Shown: positions 1-5,561 of the stretch, piece after piece
How positions within the stretch are numbered: the stretch's first letter is position 1
How the letters are laid out: every line of letters starts with the position of its first letter
From: Ruminococcus sp. UBA4385
Lineage (GTDB): Bacteria > Bacillota_A > Clostridia > Oscillospirales > Ruminococcaceae
Length of the DNA stretch: 5,590 nt
Assembly (NCBI GenBank): GCA_002391065.1
Contig: DGRP01000029.1
Location: forward strand, 1 to 5,590
Reading direction: 5' to 3'
Made by a program: the position numbers and the translations under genes
The notes under the pieces: model-generated
Database searches by the model: none
Told to the model about the DNA's origin: nothing
Seen by the model: the letters and a program-made list of their open reading frames with translations, nothing else

Positions 1-204
1 CTCTGTGCATCAGATGCGCCGTCCAGAGGCGTTAGCCGTGGGTCGTGCGGTATTGCCTTAAACAAGAGCATAACAATGTCAAAGGCTGTCAAGGCGATAG
101 ACCCGAACGCTGAGGGCTTTGGGCCTGCTCTGTTCGGCTACACCGCCTTTACAAGCTTCGCAGGCGGTGCAGCTATGCTTGCACGAAGAAAAAAGAAGAG
201 CTGA
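1..204 (+). CDS. C-terminal end of a probable surface-anchored protein (5' end outside window)
   Basis: The frame is open from the first base to a TGA at 202-204, giving 67 residues of a gene that begins upstream. The last ~30 residues are a glycine/alanine/phenylalanine-rich hydrophobic stretch (GFGPALFGYTAFTSFAGG) followed by a short basic tail (ARRKKKS). This hydrophobic-plus-basic ending is typical of Gram-positive proteins held at the membrane or presented to a sortase. No LPXTG-like pentapeptide is visible; the equivalent place reads DPNAEG. The first ~35 residues show no recognisable domain. The minus strand also has a short open stretch here, but it has no ribosome binding site and no start giving a convincing protein. 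No clear terminator separates this gene from the next, though the following gene has its own promoter. The reading frame is moderately supported; the surface role is inferred only from the tail. Confidence 0.42.
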   Translation, partial: LCASDAPSRGVSRGSCGIALNKSITMSKAVKAIDPNAEGFGPALFGYTAFTSFAGGAAMLARRKKKS

Positions 205-277: not shown

Positions 278-307
278 TACCAAAAGCTCTGCAAAAGGAG
301 GATAACT

Positions 308-2386
308 ATGGCGAATAAGGCAGTAAAGCTTCTGAATGAATATTTTGAAAAGGTATACTCCGCAGACACTACATCAAAATTTAATGCTCTGTGCAAGGAG
401 TACTCTCAGCTTATCCCAATGGCTGACCCCGACGCTGAAACTGCAAAGCTCATGGAAAACATTTTTGAAGCTATGTCGCATATACTTTCCCCGGAAAGGA
501 AGCATAACACCGGAAAAGAGCGCCTTTCCGATACTGAGAAGAAAGAAATGGACATGGTTCAGAGACTTATTGACATGAACCTCTTTACTTATCATTTCCA
601 GCCAATAGTTCGTGCCGACACGGGAGAGATCTATTCCTATGAGGCTCTTATGAGAGCAGGAGATATAACAGAGATCACTCCGTTTCATATACTGAAGTAT
701 TCCGAGCTTACCGACAGGCTTGATGAGATAGAAAAGTATACCTTCCTTAATGTACTTCATTTTATGAAGACTAACCCTGAGCTTTTCAGGGATAAGCTTG
801 TTTTCATTAACAGTATGCCAAGCGTTCACATCGACAGTGACAGTCAGGCTGAGATAGAAAGGCTCTTGTCCGAGCTTTCGGATAAGGTCGTTGTTGAGAT
901 GACCGAAAACTCCGAATATGATGACGATGACCTCAATGACATCAAGCGCAGGTATTTCAGGCTTAATATCCCGATAGCCATTGATGACTACGGCACAGGC
1001 TACTCGAATATCAGCAATCTTCTGAGATACACCCCGAACTACGTTAAAATTGACCGTTCTCTCATCAGCGGTATTCAGGATAACCCGAACAAAAAGCACT
1101 TTGTAAGGGAGATAATCGACTTCTGCCACGATAACGGCATTATGGCTCTTGCCGAGGGCGTTGAAACGTCAGAGGAGCTTCGTACTGTTATACTGCTCGG
1201 TGCTGACCTTATACAGGGCTTCTACACTGCAAGACCCTCTGCCGAGGTTATTCAGTCGCTGACCTATGAACTGAAGGCTGAAATAAAAGCCCACCAGCAG
1301 GAGCGTCAGAACGGCAGACGTCTCAGAATGTATACCGCTGAAAACGGAGAGCACGTCTCTCTTGAAAGGCTTGAAAAAGACGGCTACAGCTGTATCCGCA
1401 TTGGCTCGGACTACACATGGGGAAATGTCACGGTAAGCGGCTCTGCAAGCCCCGATTCGGCGCTTCATATTGAGGTCGCTGAAAGCTTCAGCGGACAGAT
1501 AACCCTCGAAAATGCCACACTTTCAAACCTGACCGAAAGCCCCTGCATTGATATAGGCTCGGACTGCGATGTAAGCCTTTTGCTTATCGGTGTAAACAAG
1601 CTTGTAAACAGCGGTATCCGTGTACATGAAAGCGCATCATTCACCCTTAAAGGCAAGGGAAACCTCGATATAGCTCTCGGAAGCTCCGACTACTACGGCA
1701 TCGGAAACGACAAAGCTTCTCGTCACGGCACACTCATTTTCAATCAGGACGGAACAGTCAGCATTCGCGCTGACAGCCATGCAGGTGTGCTTATAGGCTC
1801 GGGACTCGGCGGTAAAATCAGCATACAGAGGGGCAGATACATTCTTAAAGGCAACGGAAGCATCAATGTCTGCGTAGGCTCACTTGACGGCGATACAAGA
1901 GTTGAGCTTCACGGCTGTGACTTTGAGGGCACTGCTCTCGGTGCTGTCGGAGTGGTGATCGGCTCTATGAACGGCTCTGCGGATATCCATGCGATATACT
2001 CAAGTGTCAAGTGCATTTCGTCAAGCCAGCTATCTGCCTCGATCGGAACAATAGAGGGCAAAAGCGCAAAGCTTCATGCAGAGAGCGTAAGCATAGAATC
2101 TAAGAGCAGCGCTGATGCACTCACTTCCTTCGGTGCGCTCAATGGTCTCTCAGATATAAGGATCGAACGCTCCTCTGTCAAGGCAGAGGCCGAGGGCGCA
2201 AAGGCGCTCATATTCGGAAGCCATCAGAACGGCGCTAAGCTCACACTTACTGATGTTGATATCTCGGCATCAATTTCAACCGAGCACGCAGCCTACATTA
2301 TTGCGGAAAAATCCGATATACACACCTCGGGCGGAAGATACCGCTTTACTATCAACGGCAGCGAAGCCAGCGGGCCTATACACTGA
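308..2386 (+). CDS. EAL-domain c-di-GMP phosphodiesterase fused to a C-terminal beta-helix-like repeat domain
   Basis: Predicted to hydrolyse cyclic di-GMP to pGpG in the cytoplasm. Residues 1-80 are a mostly helical N-terminus I do not recognise. Residues ~83-325 form an EAL domain with every expected catalytic element: the EAL motif (YEALMR, Glu112), Asn168 (FINSMP), Glu197 (VEMTE), Asp226-Asp227 (DDYGTGYSN), Lys247 (KIDR), Glu283 (AEGVE) and Gln303 (QGFYTARP). It should therefore be active rather than a degenerate c-di-GMP receptor. Residues ~340-692 are rich in Gly, Ser, Ile and Val and carry IGS-type motifs spaced about 28 residues apart, as in a right-handed parallel beta-helix; clostridial carbohydrate-binding beta-helices of the Cthe_2159 kind are the closest comparison I can make. 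No signal peptide or membrane segment is visible. The start is set by AAAGGAGG at 294-301, 6 nt before ATG. The gene appears monocistronic and converges on the STAS gene. The EAL call is firm; the fold and role of the C-terminus are inferred. Confidence 0.95.
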   Translation: MANKAVKLLNEYFEKVYSADTTSKFNALCKEYSQLIPMADPDAETAKLMENIFEAMSHILSPERKHNTGKERLSDTEKKEMDMVQRLIDMNLFTYHFQPIVRADTGEIYSYEALMRAGDITEITPFHILKYSELTDRLDEIEKYTFLNVLHFMKTNPELFRDKLVFINSMPSVHIDSDSQAEIERLLSELSDKVVVEMTENSEYDDDDLNDIKRRYFRLNIPIAIDDYGTGYSNISNLLRYTPNYVKIDRSLISGIQDNPNKKHFVREIIDFCHDNGIMALAEGVETSEELRTVILLGADLIQGFYTARPSAEVIQSLTYELKAEIKAHQQERQNGRRLRMYTAENGEHVSLERLEKDGYSCIRIGSDYTWGNVTVSGSASPDSALHIEVAESFSGQITLENATLSNLTESPCIDIGSDCDVSLLLIGVNKLVNSGIRVHESASFTLKGKGNLDIALGSSDYYGIGNDKASRHGTLIFNQDGTVSIRADSHAGVLIGSGLGGKISIQRGRYILKGNGSINVCVGSLDGDTRVELHGCDFEGTALGAVGVVIGSMNGSADIHAIYSSVKCISSSQLSASIGTIEGKSAKLHAESVSIESKSSADALTSFGALNGLSDIRIERSSVKAEAEGAKALIFGSHQNGAKLTLTDVDISASISTEHAAYIIAEKSDIHTSGGRYRFTINGSEASGPIH
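1787..2290 (+). repeat. Six degenerate ~28-residue coding repeats (IGS-type coils)
   Basis: In the C-terminus of the EAL protein, a hydrophobic-Gly-(Ser/Thr/Ala) motif recurs with glycines at residues 497, 524, 552, 580, 609 and 637. The spacings are 27, 28, 28, 29 and 28. Each copy continues with a polar/Gly turn (for example GSLDGD, GSMNGS, GTIEGK, GALNGL), then an alternating hydrophobic strand (ISI, VEL, DIHA, AKLH, DIRI, LTL). This is the pattern of stacked coils in a solenoid. Less regular copies occur earlier, at residues 366, 417, 458 and 466. The repeats are diverged in sequence, so they are old rather than a recent tandem expansion. Confidence 0.72.
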
Positions 2387-2456: not shown

Positions 2457-2492
2457 CTGCCCGAAAGGACAAGTCTTTCGGACAGCTTTTTT
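2457..2492. terminator. Bidirectional intrinsic terminator between the convergent EAL and STAS genes
   Basis: The 11-bp arms CTGCCCGAAAG (2457-2467) and CTTTCGGACAG (2475-2485) flank a 7-nt loop. On the plus strand a T-run follows (2487-2492); on the minus strand the A-run at 2451-2456 supplies the T-run. The single imperfect position (2460/2482) is a C-A mismatch in the plus-strand RNA but a G-U wobble in the minus-strand RNA, so the hairpin is better paired for the STAS transcript. It lies immediately after the STAS stop codon. Confidence 0.88.
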
Positions 2493-2495
2493 CTT

Positions 2496-2801
2496 TTATG
2501 CAGGCTTTACATTCATGATCTGTGTGAAGCCTGTGGTTTCAAGTATTTCCAGAACTATGGGTGATACATTTACAATGGACAAAGGCTGTTCGTATCTTGT
2601 GCCGACCTGCAAAAGCACCCTGAGCCCTGCACTGGATATATACTCAAGCTTCTTCGCATCAAACAGGGGCGCTGTATCAGAGCACTTTTCCAGTACATCA
2701 AAGACAGCCTTTCTAACCTCTTCGACATTGTTCATATCTATTCTTCCCGACAATGAAATCGTCAGCTTTCCGCTTTCAAAAACCGAATCAACATTCTGCA
2801 T
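2496..2801 (-). CDS. STAS-domain protein, anti-sigma factor antagonist type (SpoIIAA/RsbV-like)
   Basis: A 101-residue protein made of a single STAS domain, the usual length for this family. The N-terminal strand region (LTISLSGRIDMNNVEEVRK, residues 13-31) fits the conserved STAS opening. The switch motif YISSAGLRVLL (residues 54-64) is the signature, with Ser57 at the position that SpoIIAA-like proteins have phosphorylated by an anti-sigma kinase. In known systems the unphosphorylated protein binds the anti-sigma factor and frees a sigma factor; STAS proteins also serve in other partner-switching circuits. No partner kinase, phosphatase or sigma factor lies in this window, so the partner is unknown. 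Its position between c-di-GMP making and breaking enzymes is suggestive only. The start is fixed by AAAGGAG (complement of 2809-2815), 7 nt before ATG. It is transcribed alone from its own promoter and ends at the shared terminator. It is cytoplasmic, with no membrane segment. Confidence 0.93.
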   Translation of the reverse strand: MQNVDSVFESGKLTISLSGRIDMNNVEEVRKAVFDVLEKCSDTAPLFDAKKLEYISSAGLRVLLQVGTRYEQPLSIVNVSPIVLEILETTGFTQIMNVKPA

Positions 2802-3025: not shown

Positions 3026-4750
3026 ATGAATGAAAACAAGCGTAAAAGCCTGACATTTGTCAACCTTGCACTTGCGCTCGCAAATGACTATAAAACGCTG
3101 TATGTTATCAGCTCAGATGATGACAGCTATATTGAGTATGCTCCTCACGGCGACGATAAGGAGCTTGTTCCTGTTTCCAGCGGTGATGATTTCTACAGCG
3201 ATTCAATAAAAAATGCAAGGGAGCAGGTCTGGCCTGCTGATCTTGAGTTTTTTCTTAATGCAATTAGCAAGGAGGCTGTTGTCAGCGCTCTTCAGGACGG
3301 AAAATCTTTCTCTCTGAACTACCGTCTGAATATAAACGGTGTACCCCGCTACTATTTTCTTAAAACTATACGTGCTACCGACAGAAGCATAGTTATCGGC
3401 GTTCAGGACATTGACAAACAGAAGCGCCGTGAGCTTGAAAATGAAGCTGTCAGCAGAACCTATTCGGAGATCGCAGATTCTCTTGCAAGCCTGTTTGAGG
3501 TTATCTACCATGTTGATATTTCTACGGGGCGTTATACTGAGTACAGCTCCAGCGAGAGCTATGCGGAGCTTGGTCTTAGCAGCAGCGGAGCTGACTTTTT
3601 CCGCAAGGCGCAGGAGGATATTGTCCGTGTTGTACATAAGGATGATAAGGAAATGGTGGTTCAGCGCTTTGACCGTGAAAGCCTTATAAAAGACCTTCGG
3701 GAAGAGGGCTCGGTTCAGCTGACTTACAGACAGGTGCTTGATAACAGGATACAGTATGTGCAGATGCTTGCCTTTTTCAAGAAAGACAACGAGGAGCGCC
3801 TTGTAGTTGCTGTCAGGAACATTGACCAGCAGATGCGCAATGAGCAGAGGCTCAGACAGCAGAGCCGTGATTTCAGCGATATGGCTATGGCTCTGGCTCA
3901 GCAGTATGAGGTCATTTACAGGGTAGACCTGAACACAAATGAATATTTTGAATACACCTCAAGCACGCAGTTTGCTCGTCTGGAGCTGGGTACTGTCGGG
4001 AAGGATTTCTTTGCCGAAGCAGCAGAGAACATGAAGCACGAAATCTACAGCGAGGATCTGCCCATGATGCAGATGTCAATGAAAAAGGAAAACCTGATTG
4101 AAAGCCTCGGCGTTTCGGGAAAGGTGTTCTTTAACTACAGGCAGATAATTGATAACAGACCTCAGTATGTGTCTTTGTATGCGGTCAGACCGAGCGATGA
4201 CTCAGACCATATCATTATAGCTGTTGCAAACATTGATGCCGCAAAGCGAATGGAGCTTCAGTACAGAAACGCAGTTGACCTTGCAAACCGTGACGCTCTT
4301 ACCGAGGTCAAGAACAAGAGAGCCTATGCCCAGTGTGAAATGGAGCTCGACAATCAGATATATGCAGGAAAAATATCTGGGTTCTCAATCGTTATCTGCG
4401 ACCTGAACGGTCTGAAAAATGTAAATGACACACTCGGACACAAGGCAGGAGATGACTTTATCAAAAGCGGCTGCAAATACATCTGCGACACCTTTGACCA
4501 CAGCCCTGTTTTCCGTATCGGCGGAGATGAGTTTGCGATAATCGTCAAGGGCAGAGATTTTGAGCGCCGTGATGAGCTTATGGAGCGTTTCAGAACGATC
4601 ATGAACGAGAACAAGCAGAAGGGCCTTGTGACAGTTGCCTGCGGTATCTCCGACTTTGACCCTGTCAGGGATATGAGAGTGCAGGACGTTTTCGAGCGTG
4701 CCGATGCACTGATGTACGAGAACAAGAAGTTTCTGAAAGCCGGAAACTGA
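3026..4750 (+). CDS. Diguanylate cyclase with three tandem PAS-like modules and a C-terminal GGDEF domain
   Basis: Predicted to make cyclic di-GMP from two GTP in the cytoplasm; 574 residues with no signal peptide or membrane segment. Residues ~11-410 are three related sensor-like modules. Residues ~412-572 are a GGDEF domain with the expected opening RDALTEVKNKRAY (422-434), metal-binding Asp459 in DLNGLKNVND, an intact GGDEF active site (499-503, in FRIGGDEF), and the closing ADALMYENKK (559-568). The usual allosteric inhibitory RxxD site, five residues before GGDEF, is absent: the tetrapeptide there is FDHS. Product inhibition through that site is therefore not expected. The modules have a PAS-like pattern of aromatic, charged and hydrophobic residues, but I cannot name their ligand. 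The start is set by AGGAG at 3012-3016, 9 nt before ATG. The gene is divergent from the STAS gene and its stop is 1 nt before the esterase start. The cyclase call is firm; the PAS assignment is likely but not certain. Confidence 0.94.
   Translation: MNENKRKSLTFVNLALALANDYKTLYVISSDDDSYIEYAPHGDDKELVPVSSGDDFYSDSIKNAREQVWPADLEFFLNAISKEAVVSALQDGKSFSLNYRLNINGVPRYYFLKTIRATDRSIVIGVQDIDKQKRRELENEAVSRTYSEIADSLASLFEVIYHVDISTGRYTEYSSSESYAELGLSSSGADFFRKAQEDIVRVVHKDDKEMVVQRFDRESLIKDLREEGSVQLTYRQVLDNRIQYVQMLAFFKKDNEERLVVAVRNIDQQMRNEQRLRQQSRDFSDMAMALAQQYEVIYRVDLNTNEYFEYTSSTQFARLELGTVGKDFFAEAAENMKHEIYSEDLPMMQMSMKKENLIESLGVSGKVFFNYRQIIDNRPQYVSLYAVRPSDDSDHIIIAVANIDAAKRMELQYRNAVDLANRDALTEVKNKRAYAQCEMELDNQIYAGKISGFSIVICDLNGLKNVNDTLGHKAGDDFIKSGCKYICDTFDHSPVFRIGGDEFAIIVKGRDFERRDELMERFRTIMNENKQKGLVTVACGISDFDPVRDMRVQDVFERADALMYENKKFLKAGN
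3056..4255 (+). repeat. Three tandem homologous sensor modules of ~137 residues (coding)
   Basis: Within the cyclase, each module opens with a motif of the LYVISSDDDSYIEY / FEVIYHVDISTGRYTEY / YEVIYRVDLNTNEYFEY kind. Each then has a central Asp-rich helix and a YR-x-x-DNR-x-QYV-like strand pair, and closes with VGVQDID / VAVRNID / IAVANID. The closing Asp lies at residues 130, 267 and 404, exactly 137 apart both times. The opening aromatic residue of modules 2 and 3 (157, 294) is also 137 apart. Module 1 is the most diverged, with its opening shifted by about 2 residues and GVPRYY in place of DNRxQYV. Modules 2 and 3 look like the more recent duplication. Confidence 0.8.
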
Positions 4751-4751
4751 T

Positions 4752-5561
4752 ATGAACAAATACAGAGATATACTCGCAGAGAAAGCGTCGGAGAGCGTGC
4801 TTGAAAAAAGAGCTTCCGTCAGCTATTCTGCTTTCAGAAAATACAGCTACTACTCACGGACAGCACAGCGTGAGACCCCTGTAAATGTACTCCTGCCTGC
4901 CGAAACGGAAGAGGGCAGACGCTATCCTGTGCTCTACATTCTGCACGGCTACTGGTGCGATGAAAACTGGATGAGCGACGAGAGGGTGCATATCCCCGAA
5001 ATGCTTGCAAACCTCACCGCTGATGGCTCTGCCGAGCAGATGATAATTGTATGTCCGTACATCTATTGCAGTAAGGATAAGCCTCGCTGTACCGCTATGG
5101 ACTATGAGAACTCCTCAGCCTATGATAACTTCATCAATGACCTGAATACTGACCTTATGCCCTTTATTGAAAACACCTTTCCTGTCCTGACCGACCGTGA
5201 AAGCACTGCCATAACAGGCTTTTCAATGGGCGGAAGAGAAGCACTTTTTATAGGGCTCAGTCAGCCTGAGCGCTTCGGCTATATAGGTGCTGTCTGCCCC
5301 GCCCCCGGGCTTGTAAGAGGTACAGAGGATCCATTTAATCTGGAGAACGAAGACCTTCGCTTTGAGCACGATGCCCCGAAGGTGCTTCTTCTGAGCGCCG
5401 CCGTCGGAGACCCTGTAGTCAGGGGCTGCCCCGAGCTTTATCACAGGCTCTTCACCGAGAACGGCACAGAGCATATCTGGCATCACATTCACGGCACAGG
5501 CCATGATGCAGACAGCGTTATACCTCACCTGTATAACTTTTTAAGAATGATATTCCGATAA
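4752..5561 (+). CDS. Alpha/beta-hydrolase esterase (putative esterase, esterase D/CE1-like family)
   Basis: A 269-residue serine esterase of the PF00756 type, a family that includes S-formylglutathione hydrolases, tributyrin esterases and acetyl-xylan or feruloyl esterases. The family opening (VNVLLPAETEEGRRYPVLY, residues 44-62) leads into the oxyanion region LHGYWCDENW (64-73). The nucleophile elbow is GFSMGG with Ser158. Asp220 (VGDP) and His251 (HGTGHD) fit the rest of the triad. No signal peptide is present, so it should act inside the cell, perhaps on acylated sugars or oligosaccharides taken up from plant material; the substrate is inferred and not shown. ATG lies 1 nt after the cyclase stop, with only a weak GGAAA before it inside the cyclase 3' end, suggesting translational coupling and one transcript. 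A terminator follows the stop directly. Confidence 0.9.
   Translation: MNKYRDILAEKASESVLEKRASVSYSAFRKYSYYSRTAQRETPVNVLLPAETEEGRRYPVLYILHGYWCDENWMSDERVHIPEMLANLTADGSAEQMIIVCPYIYCSKDKPRCTAMDYENSSAYDNFINDLNTDLMPFIENTFPVLTDRESTAITGFSMGGREALFIGLSQPERFGYIGAVCPAPGLVRGTEDPFNLENEDLRFEHDAPKVLLLSAAVGDPVVRGCPELYHRLFTENGTEHIWHHIHGTGHDADSVIPHLYNFLRMIFR

Follow-up and report, generated by a model that had tools for sequence, protein, structure and literature searches.

Enzymes of the EAL class (PF00563), including PdeA, MorA, YahA and DosP, are known phosphodiesterases, and beta-helices are likewise a known fold. The beta-helices of autotransporter passengers, tailspikes and adhesins are extracellular. MinC is also a beta-helix, and both MinC and bactofilin place this fold in the cytoplasm, as we propose for the protein described below, with helices that are much shorter. 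A further beta-helix family, Cthe_2159 (PF14262), is reported to bind cellulose and pectic acids (PMC6712302; see also PMC9210967). The protein considered here is encoded in a 5,590-nucleotide stretch of Ruminococcus sp. UBA4385 DNA (the window; Table 1) and differs from the known EAL phosphodiesterases by a C-terminal beta-helix accessory domain. No description of an EAL-beta-helix fusion was found in the titles and abstract openings of open-licence papers, which is not proof of absence, and titles in that literature offered nothing on point for c-di-GMP signaling in Ruminococcus or rumen bacteria. Matches joining the terms EAL, beta-helix and phosphodiesterase concerned, as far as the available text goes, a surface adhesin and the auxin response.

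Table 1. Features of the window, with positions numbered from its first nucleotide
Feature	Position	Strand	Basis
EAL-beta-helix gene, 692 aa	308..2386	+	Intact open frame; 85 matching proteins
Shine-Dalgarno-like AAGGAGG, 6 bases 5' of ATG	295..301	+	Read directly
N-terminal helical segment, residues 1-75, variable across the family	308..532	+	AF2, conservation
EAL domain, probable c-di-GMP phosphodiesterase, residues 83-310	554..1237	+	PF00563
Linker helix, residues 320-335	1265..1312	+	AF2 secondary structure
Right-handed parallel beta-helix, residues 362-682	1391..2353	+	Predicted structure
First half of helix, residues 370-524, homolog of secreted surface repeats	1415..1879	+	hhalign
NDKASRH, residues 467-473, most conserved polar stretch of helix	1706..1726	+	Alignment
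Hairpin resembling a terminator, both strands with a T-rich tail, separating the EAL-helix gene from the convergent STAS gene	2457..2481	.	Pattern scan
STAS-domain gene, convergent with EAL-helix gene	2496-2801	-	PF01740, E 4.9e-12
Candidate diguanylate cyclase, GGDEF domain (RIGGDEF), second gene downstream	3026..4750	+	PF00990, E 3.5e-23
Putative esterase gene	4752-5561		PF00756, E 5.5e-21

The EAL domain is the sole Pfam match to the window protein at the curated cut-off (E 3.8e-51; 174.2 bits versus a gathering threshold of 31.3), and NCBIfam returned EAL-type equivalogs, every one below its cut-off. A preliminary description of this DNA had called the domain catalytically complete, and the relatives bear this out. 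Ten key residues (E112, N168, E197, E200, D226, D227, K247, E283, E286 and Q303) are the same in all 68 aligned sequences, comprising the window protein and 67 relatives out of 86 sequences, and again in all 76 members of a second set assembled from the window protein, 71 of 80 genome loci and four distant paralogs (nine loci were dropped as truncated or partial). We take the roles of these residues to be those of RocR-type enzymes, and presume that the metal and catalytic set consists of the Glu of EAL, an Asn, the Glu of ExT, the DD pair, a Lys, the Glu of EGVE and the Gln of QG. Judging from this complete active site and from the fold, the domain probably hydrolyzes c-di-GMP to pGpG.

Structure prediction for the whole protein (pLDDT 89.2, pTM 0.75) places a beta-solenoid at residues about 362-682. 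Fold searches with this model returned only EAL entries among the best 50 of each search, silent on the helix; we therefore folded residues 336-692 separately, and confidence rose to pLDDT 95.1 and pTM 0.93. At a whole-protein pTM of 0.75 the mutual placement of the two domains is uncertain. Coiled parallel strands, together with structural matches spanning the greater part of the domain, mark the predicted fold as a right-handed parallel beta-helix, as the preliminary description had anticipated in calling the C-terminus solenoid-like; the common sensor fold that it had named as the refuting outcome is ruled out by both predictions. Foldseek with the helix alone found no PDB match at E <= 0.001, while VIA-align on 418 chains ranked by Foldseek gave clear matches, the top ones to extracytoplasmic helices. 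Vag8, UpaB, the Sf6 tailspike and PfbA resemble the window helix in fold only (10-14% identity) and, unlike what appears to be the case here, are extracellular.

Sequence models offer no name for this region: no Pfam or NCBIfam model matched the beta-helix of the window protein, and Cthe_2159 (PF14262) gave no match in that protein at E <= 1 and was not listed for the 68 sequences at E <= 0.1. Several stray matches were set aside as chance, among them three PDB sequences, all O-methyltransferases, that matched the helix profile at E 1.5-1.6, and Pfam matches scattered over 19 families in the 68 sequences, no family hitting more than two members (best E 0.0022). A phage or viral origin was likewise rejected, as none of 81 pattern-matching stretches in viral contigs encodes a relative and a fold search of BFVD gave no match at E <= 0.001.

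The protein is apparently cytoplasmic, judging from Kyte-Doolittle hydropathy. By this measure there is no segment of membrane strength and no hydrophobic N-terminus: the highest 19-residue mean is 1.21, and the first 40 residues stay at or below -0.07, in line with the earlier remark that no export signal is visible. Residues 1-75 are predicted to form helices at 3-17, 22-39 and 43-60 (pLDDT about 70-78), followed by a poorly modeled stretch at 61-70 (pLDDT 42). The N-terminal segment and the last 20 residues are the least conserved parts of the window protein among its aligned relatives.

The fusion recurs widely enough to rule out a frame or assembly artifact, the second refuting outcome named beforehand. 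A search with residues 335-692, scoring the 7988 candidates with the most shared words, detected 85 proteins at E <= 0.001, with identity down to 33%; a precomputed EAL domain is present in 84, and nine also carry a LacI-type periplasmic-binding-like domain. A profile built from eight helices found seven proteins, five with EAL and the remaining two on contigs of 1,058 and 1,739 bases. When genomes were scanned with helix-only patterns, 127 relatives were confirmed. In the best 80 of these, EAL motifs lie upstream of the helix at 79 loci, the exception (L030) being cut by a contig end; because the loci were picked by their helix, loss of the helix could not have shown. Identity matrices of the two domains correlate across the 76-sequence set (r = 0.852, reached by 0 of 999 permutations), as expected if they traveled together. 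The C-terminal helix is thus genuine, neither chance nor a frame artifact, and its pairing with EAL, equally genuine, is conserved among bacteria of the rumen and gut.

Hosts, read from record titles, include Ruminococcus (with R. albus and R. flavefaciens among those named), Ruminiclostridium, Eubacterium, Oscillospiraceae, Lachnospiraceae and other Clostridia, many of them from ruminants. Seven Ruminococcus and Lachnospiraceae genomes hold two to five matches each, 22 in total. Within the family of R. flavefaciens Y1 (G001), the helix profile matched in 29 of 148 genomes (25 strongly, four only weakly). Of 35 loci drawn from this sample and from the seven genomes and checked for EAL motifs, 30 have them upstream, the rest being one contig-edge helix and four weak matches; counted over strong helix loci, 30 of 31 have them, 24 from the family sample and six from genomes already present in the helix-pattern scan. 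Among 398 genomes sampled across the phylum there were three strong matches, two of them also in the family sample, and two weak ones, which suggests a fusion concentrated in a subset of the Clostridia.

Where a helix came without EAL, the sequence was short or broke off with its contig, as in P0057 (404 aa; the longest of its contigs has 1,728 bases), P0091 (344 aa; 1,058 bases) and the loci L030 and L113. P0094 (329 aa), with an AFOR_N domain ahead of the helix and a single contig of 1,739 bases behind it, probably arose by chimeric assembly. Some copies in genomes G002, G003, G026, G051, G078 and G150 were listed with stop codons within the match, and a few such paralogs may be undergoing decay or reflect misassembly. 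In L093, the copy from G002, the frame stays open for 1252 residues and its stop coincides with the end of the matched region; some of the listed stops are therefore natural ends.

The fusion forms a family, which the preliminary description could not see, with several copies per genome and several N-terminal variants. The 76-sequence set falls into length classes of 51, 21, three and one members, and L107-L112 and L115-L117 add members whose open frames run to 1007-1034 residues (1311 for L109). Pfam architectures were run on six chosen members. Two (L036 and L075) read LacI-type, EAL, helix, and a third (L088) inserts GGDEF after the LacI-type domain. In the class of about 860-930 residues, L089 has a marginal GGDEF (24.9 bits versus a cut-off of 23.8), while L087 and L090 lack any N-terminal Pfam match. 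Counting the short helical N-terminus of the window protein, there are four layouts. The EAL-helix pair is constant, and what precedes it varies (short helical, LacI-type, GGDEF-like, or both of the latter).

GGDEF genes are enriched beside EAL-helix genes, though most loci lack one: by phmmer, and with the window excluded, one is an immediate neighbor at 13 of 79 loci and none is adjacent at the other 66. Among immediate neighbors 15 of 140 genes encode GGDEF, versus 8 of 571 other genes (p 1.5e-6, from loci that are related to one another). Thinning to 50 loci of <60% identity leaves six with an adjacent GGDEF gene and 7 of 92 versus 5 of 383 genes (p 0.0028). The phmmer count supersedes a motif-based one (14/140 versus 6/571), and both use mechanical gene calls. 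At L009 and L075 the neighboring gene overlaps the EAL-helix gene, and the partners carry PAS, GGDEF and EAL. The GGDEF gene of the window starts 639 bases downstream of the EAL-helix gene, past the convergent STAS gene, and because the latter intervenes it was not counted as an immediate neighbor.

A conserved operon was looked for and rejected, as the STAS and esterase genes of the window recur at only 2 and 4 of 80 loci, respectively. The widest neighbor clusters within 6 kb, assigned by eye, are ABC ATP-binding proteins at 14 loci and response regulators at 8, which we took as generic because their distances and strands are scattered. The hairpin in Table 1 is weak, one of six such patterns versus a shuffle mean of 5.1, and no RNA family reached its gathering threshold anywhere in the window.

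Some details of individual loci are recorded here. Ahead of its GGDEF domain, the product of the window GGDEF gene has about 400 residues in which PAS-like sequence appears, by eye, to repeat and in which Pfam gave no match at E <= 1; the putative esterase gene begins one base after the stop codon of the GGDEF gene. Window positions 1-204 hold the 3' end of an open frame closing with a hydrophobic stretch and RRKKKS. At L001, the best-matching genome locus, the equivalent place is taken by a glycoside hydrolase of family 44 (PF12891, E 1.7e-69) whose tail, LARKKKKG, resembles it. Two genes upstream of the EAL-helix gene of that locus (625-1473) lies a DUF3737 gene (PF12541, E 4.9e-117), presumably beta-helix-like. 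At L029 a flagellin-like gene (3130-4803) lies two genes upstream, with a LacI-like protein between, both assigned by eye.

The preliminary description had likened the helix to secreted beta-helices. Profile comparison bears this out and locates the resemblance in the first half of the domain: hhalign aligns the helix family to secreted repeats with a probability of 99.0% (147 columns, 29% identity) and an E-value of 3.4e-18, which is optimistic because the five repeat stretches compared, from three secreted proteins, had been selected by their match to the profile. Of eight places with weak matches, four were examined over their full length, a pair from G143 and a single one from each of G090 and G103. 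Judged by eye, all four proteins have signal-like N-termini; one (L123) contains InlB B-repeats and CBM_X2, another (L125) a dockerin and Cthe_2159. Under the default bias filter of HMMER, L123 alone among them hit the helix profile (45.7 bits for its best stretch). With the filter off the four scored 45.7, 31.3, 28.9 and 20.3 bits, the last being the weak match of L125, and 2 of 1000 shuffled sequences were reported, the best at 4.3 bits.

These profile matches indicate that the helix, in its first half, is a homolog of the beta-helix repeats carried by secreted surface proteins. GAGIGGG-type surface proteins such as L123 share the homologous repeats with that half only. They have surface domains and, by eye, an export-signal-like N-terminus, of which the window protein has neither; and they are not joined to a c-di-GMP enzyme, as the window helix is. 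Because the secreted form is common, the domain presumably moved from surface proteins to the enzyme rather than the reverse. The relation to Cthe_2159 itself, also a beta-helix, is a weak profile similarity through L125.

From the computed architecture, active-site residues, predicted fold, homology and conserved fusion, we infer an activity, a location, a binding role and a target. With moderate confidence, we favor a c-di-GMP phosphodiesterase that works in the cytoplasm and carries, as its helix, a platform for binding or targeting borrowed from surface proteins. The EAL domain would hydrolyze c-di-GMP to pGpG, at a rate probably set by the N-terminal part, which differs between family members. 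The helix would most likely act as an elongated platform that takes the enzyme to a specific target in the cytoplasm, either a polysaccharide or an assembly of proteins. There the enzyme would locally remove the c-di-GMP that cyclases produce, the GGDEF protein encoded nearby being one candidate source. Several points count against this reading: the 66 of 79 loci with no adjacent GGDEF gene, the STAS gene that intervenes in the window, the uncertain placement of the two domains, the three of four secreted proteins that matched only with the bias filter off, and a pattern of helix conservation (below) that reveals no obvious binding face.

The main rival, which we regard as possible but rather doubtful, makes the helix a sensor through which an intracellular carbohydrate (glycogen, or imported cello- or pectin-oligosaccharides) switches EAL on or off. 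The kinship with secreted repeats and, weakly, with the dockerin-bearing Cthe_2159 protein points this way, as does the presence of R. albus and R. flavefaciens among the hosts; the LacI-type sugar-binding-like domain of other members makes a sugar input plausible. In Streptomyces, c-di-GMP is reported to bind the glycogen debranching enzyme GlgX (PMC9530166). However, LacI-type members keep the helix despite having a sugar-sensor-like domain of their own. It is for this reason, and because the input domains differ from member to member whereas EAL and helix stay together, that we prefer targeting to sensing, a preference that is an argument and not a demonstration.

We consider it unlikely that the helix instead polymerizes the enzyme, in the manner of bactofilin, into a filament-bound phosphodiesterase. 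Cytoplasmic filament formers with beta-helices do exist (bactofilin and MinCD). Against this, and as weak evidence, the top VIA-align matches are extracytoplasmic helices and no Pfam family of this kind matched: the bactofilin profile gave nothing in the window protein at E <= 1 and was not listed for the 68 sequences at E <= 0.1. The bactofilin fold is absent from the best 50 VIA-align matches of 418 chains, which is no exclusion.

Conservation within the helix bears on a last alternative. Residues 467-473 are not retained in distant paralogs; H473 is present in 72 of 75 helices and absent from the four distant paralogs. Elsewhere, positions conserved in at least 80% of helices are mostly glycines and hydrophobics, so that the sequence does not single out a binding face. 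The helix has also changed more quickly than EAL, with a mean pairwise identity of 0.363 versus 0.568. An inert spacer or stability domain kept by history would fit this pattern but is improbable, given that the helix persists at a near constant length of about 320 residues across several paralog classes and, among loci chosen by helix, always follows EAL where the contig permits a view.

A further reading can be offered, tentatively. Firmicutes of the gut and rumen, fiber-degrading ruminococci included, may have brought a surface-type glycan-binding helix into the cytoplasm and fixed it to a c-di-GMP phosphodiesterase, giving rise to a family of enzymes that would sense intracellular polysaccharide or imported oligosaccharide directly and translate it into c-di-GMP turnover, the LacI-type and GGDEF variants forming one carbohydrate-responsive network. 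It is through their accessory domains that c-di-GMP enzymes acquire the inputs of the signal or its place of action. The EAL-helix family links the turnover of c-di-GMP with a fold familiar mainly from extracellular proteins, and provides a testable entry into the c-di-GMP signaling of gut Firmicutes.
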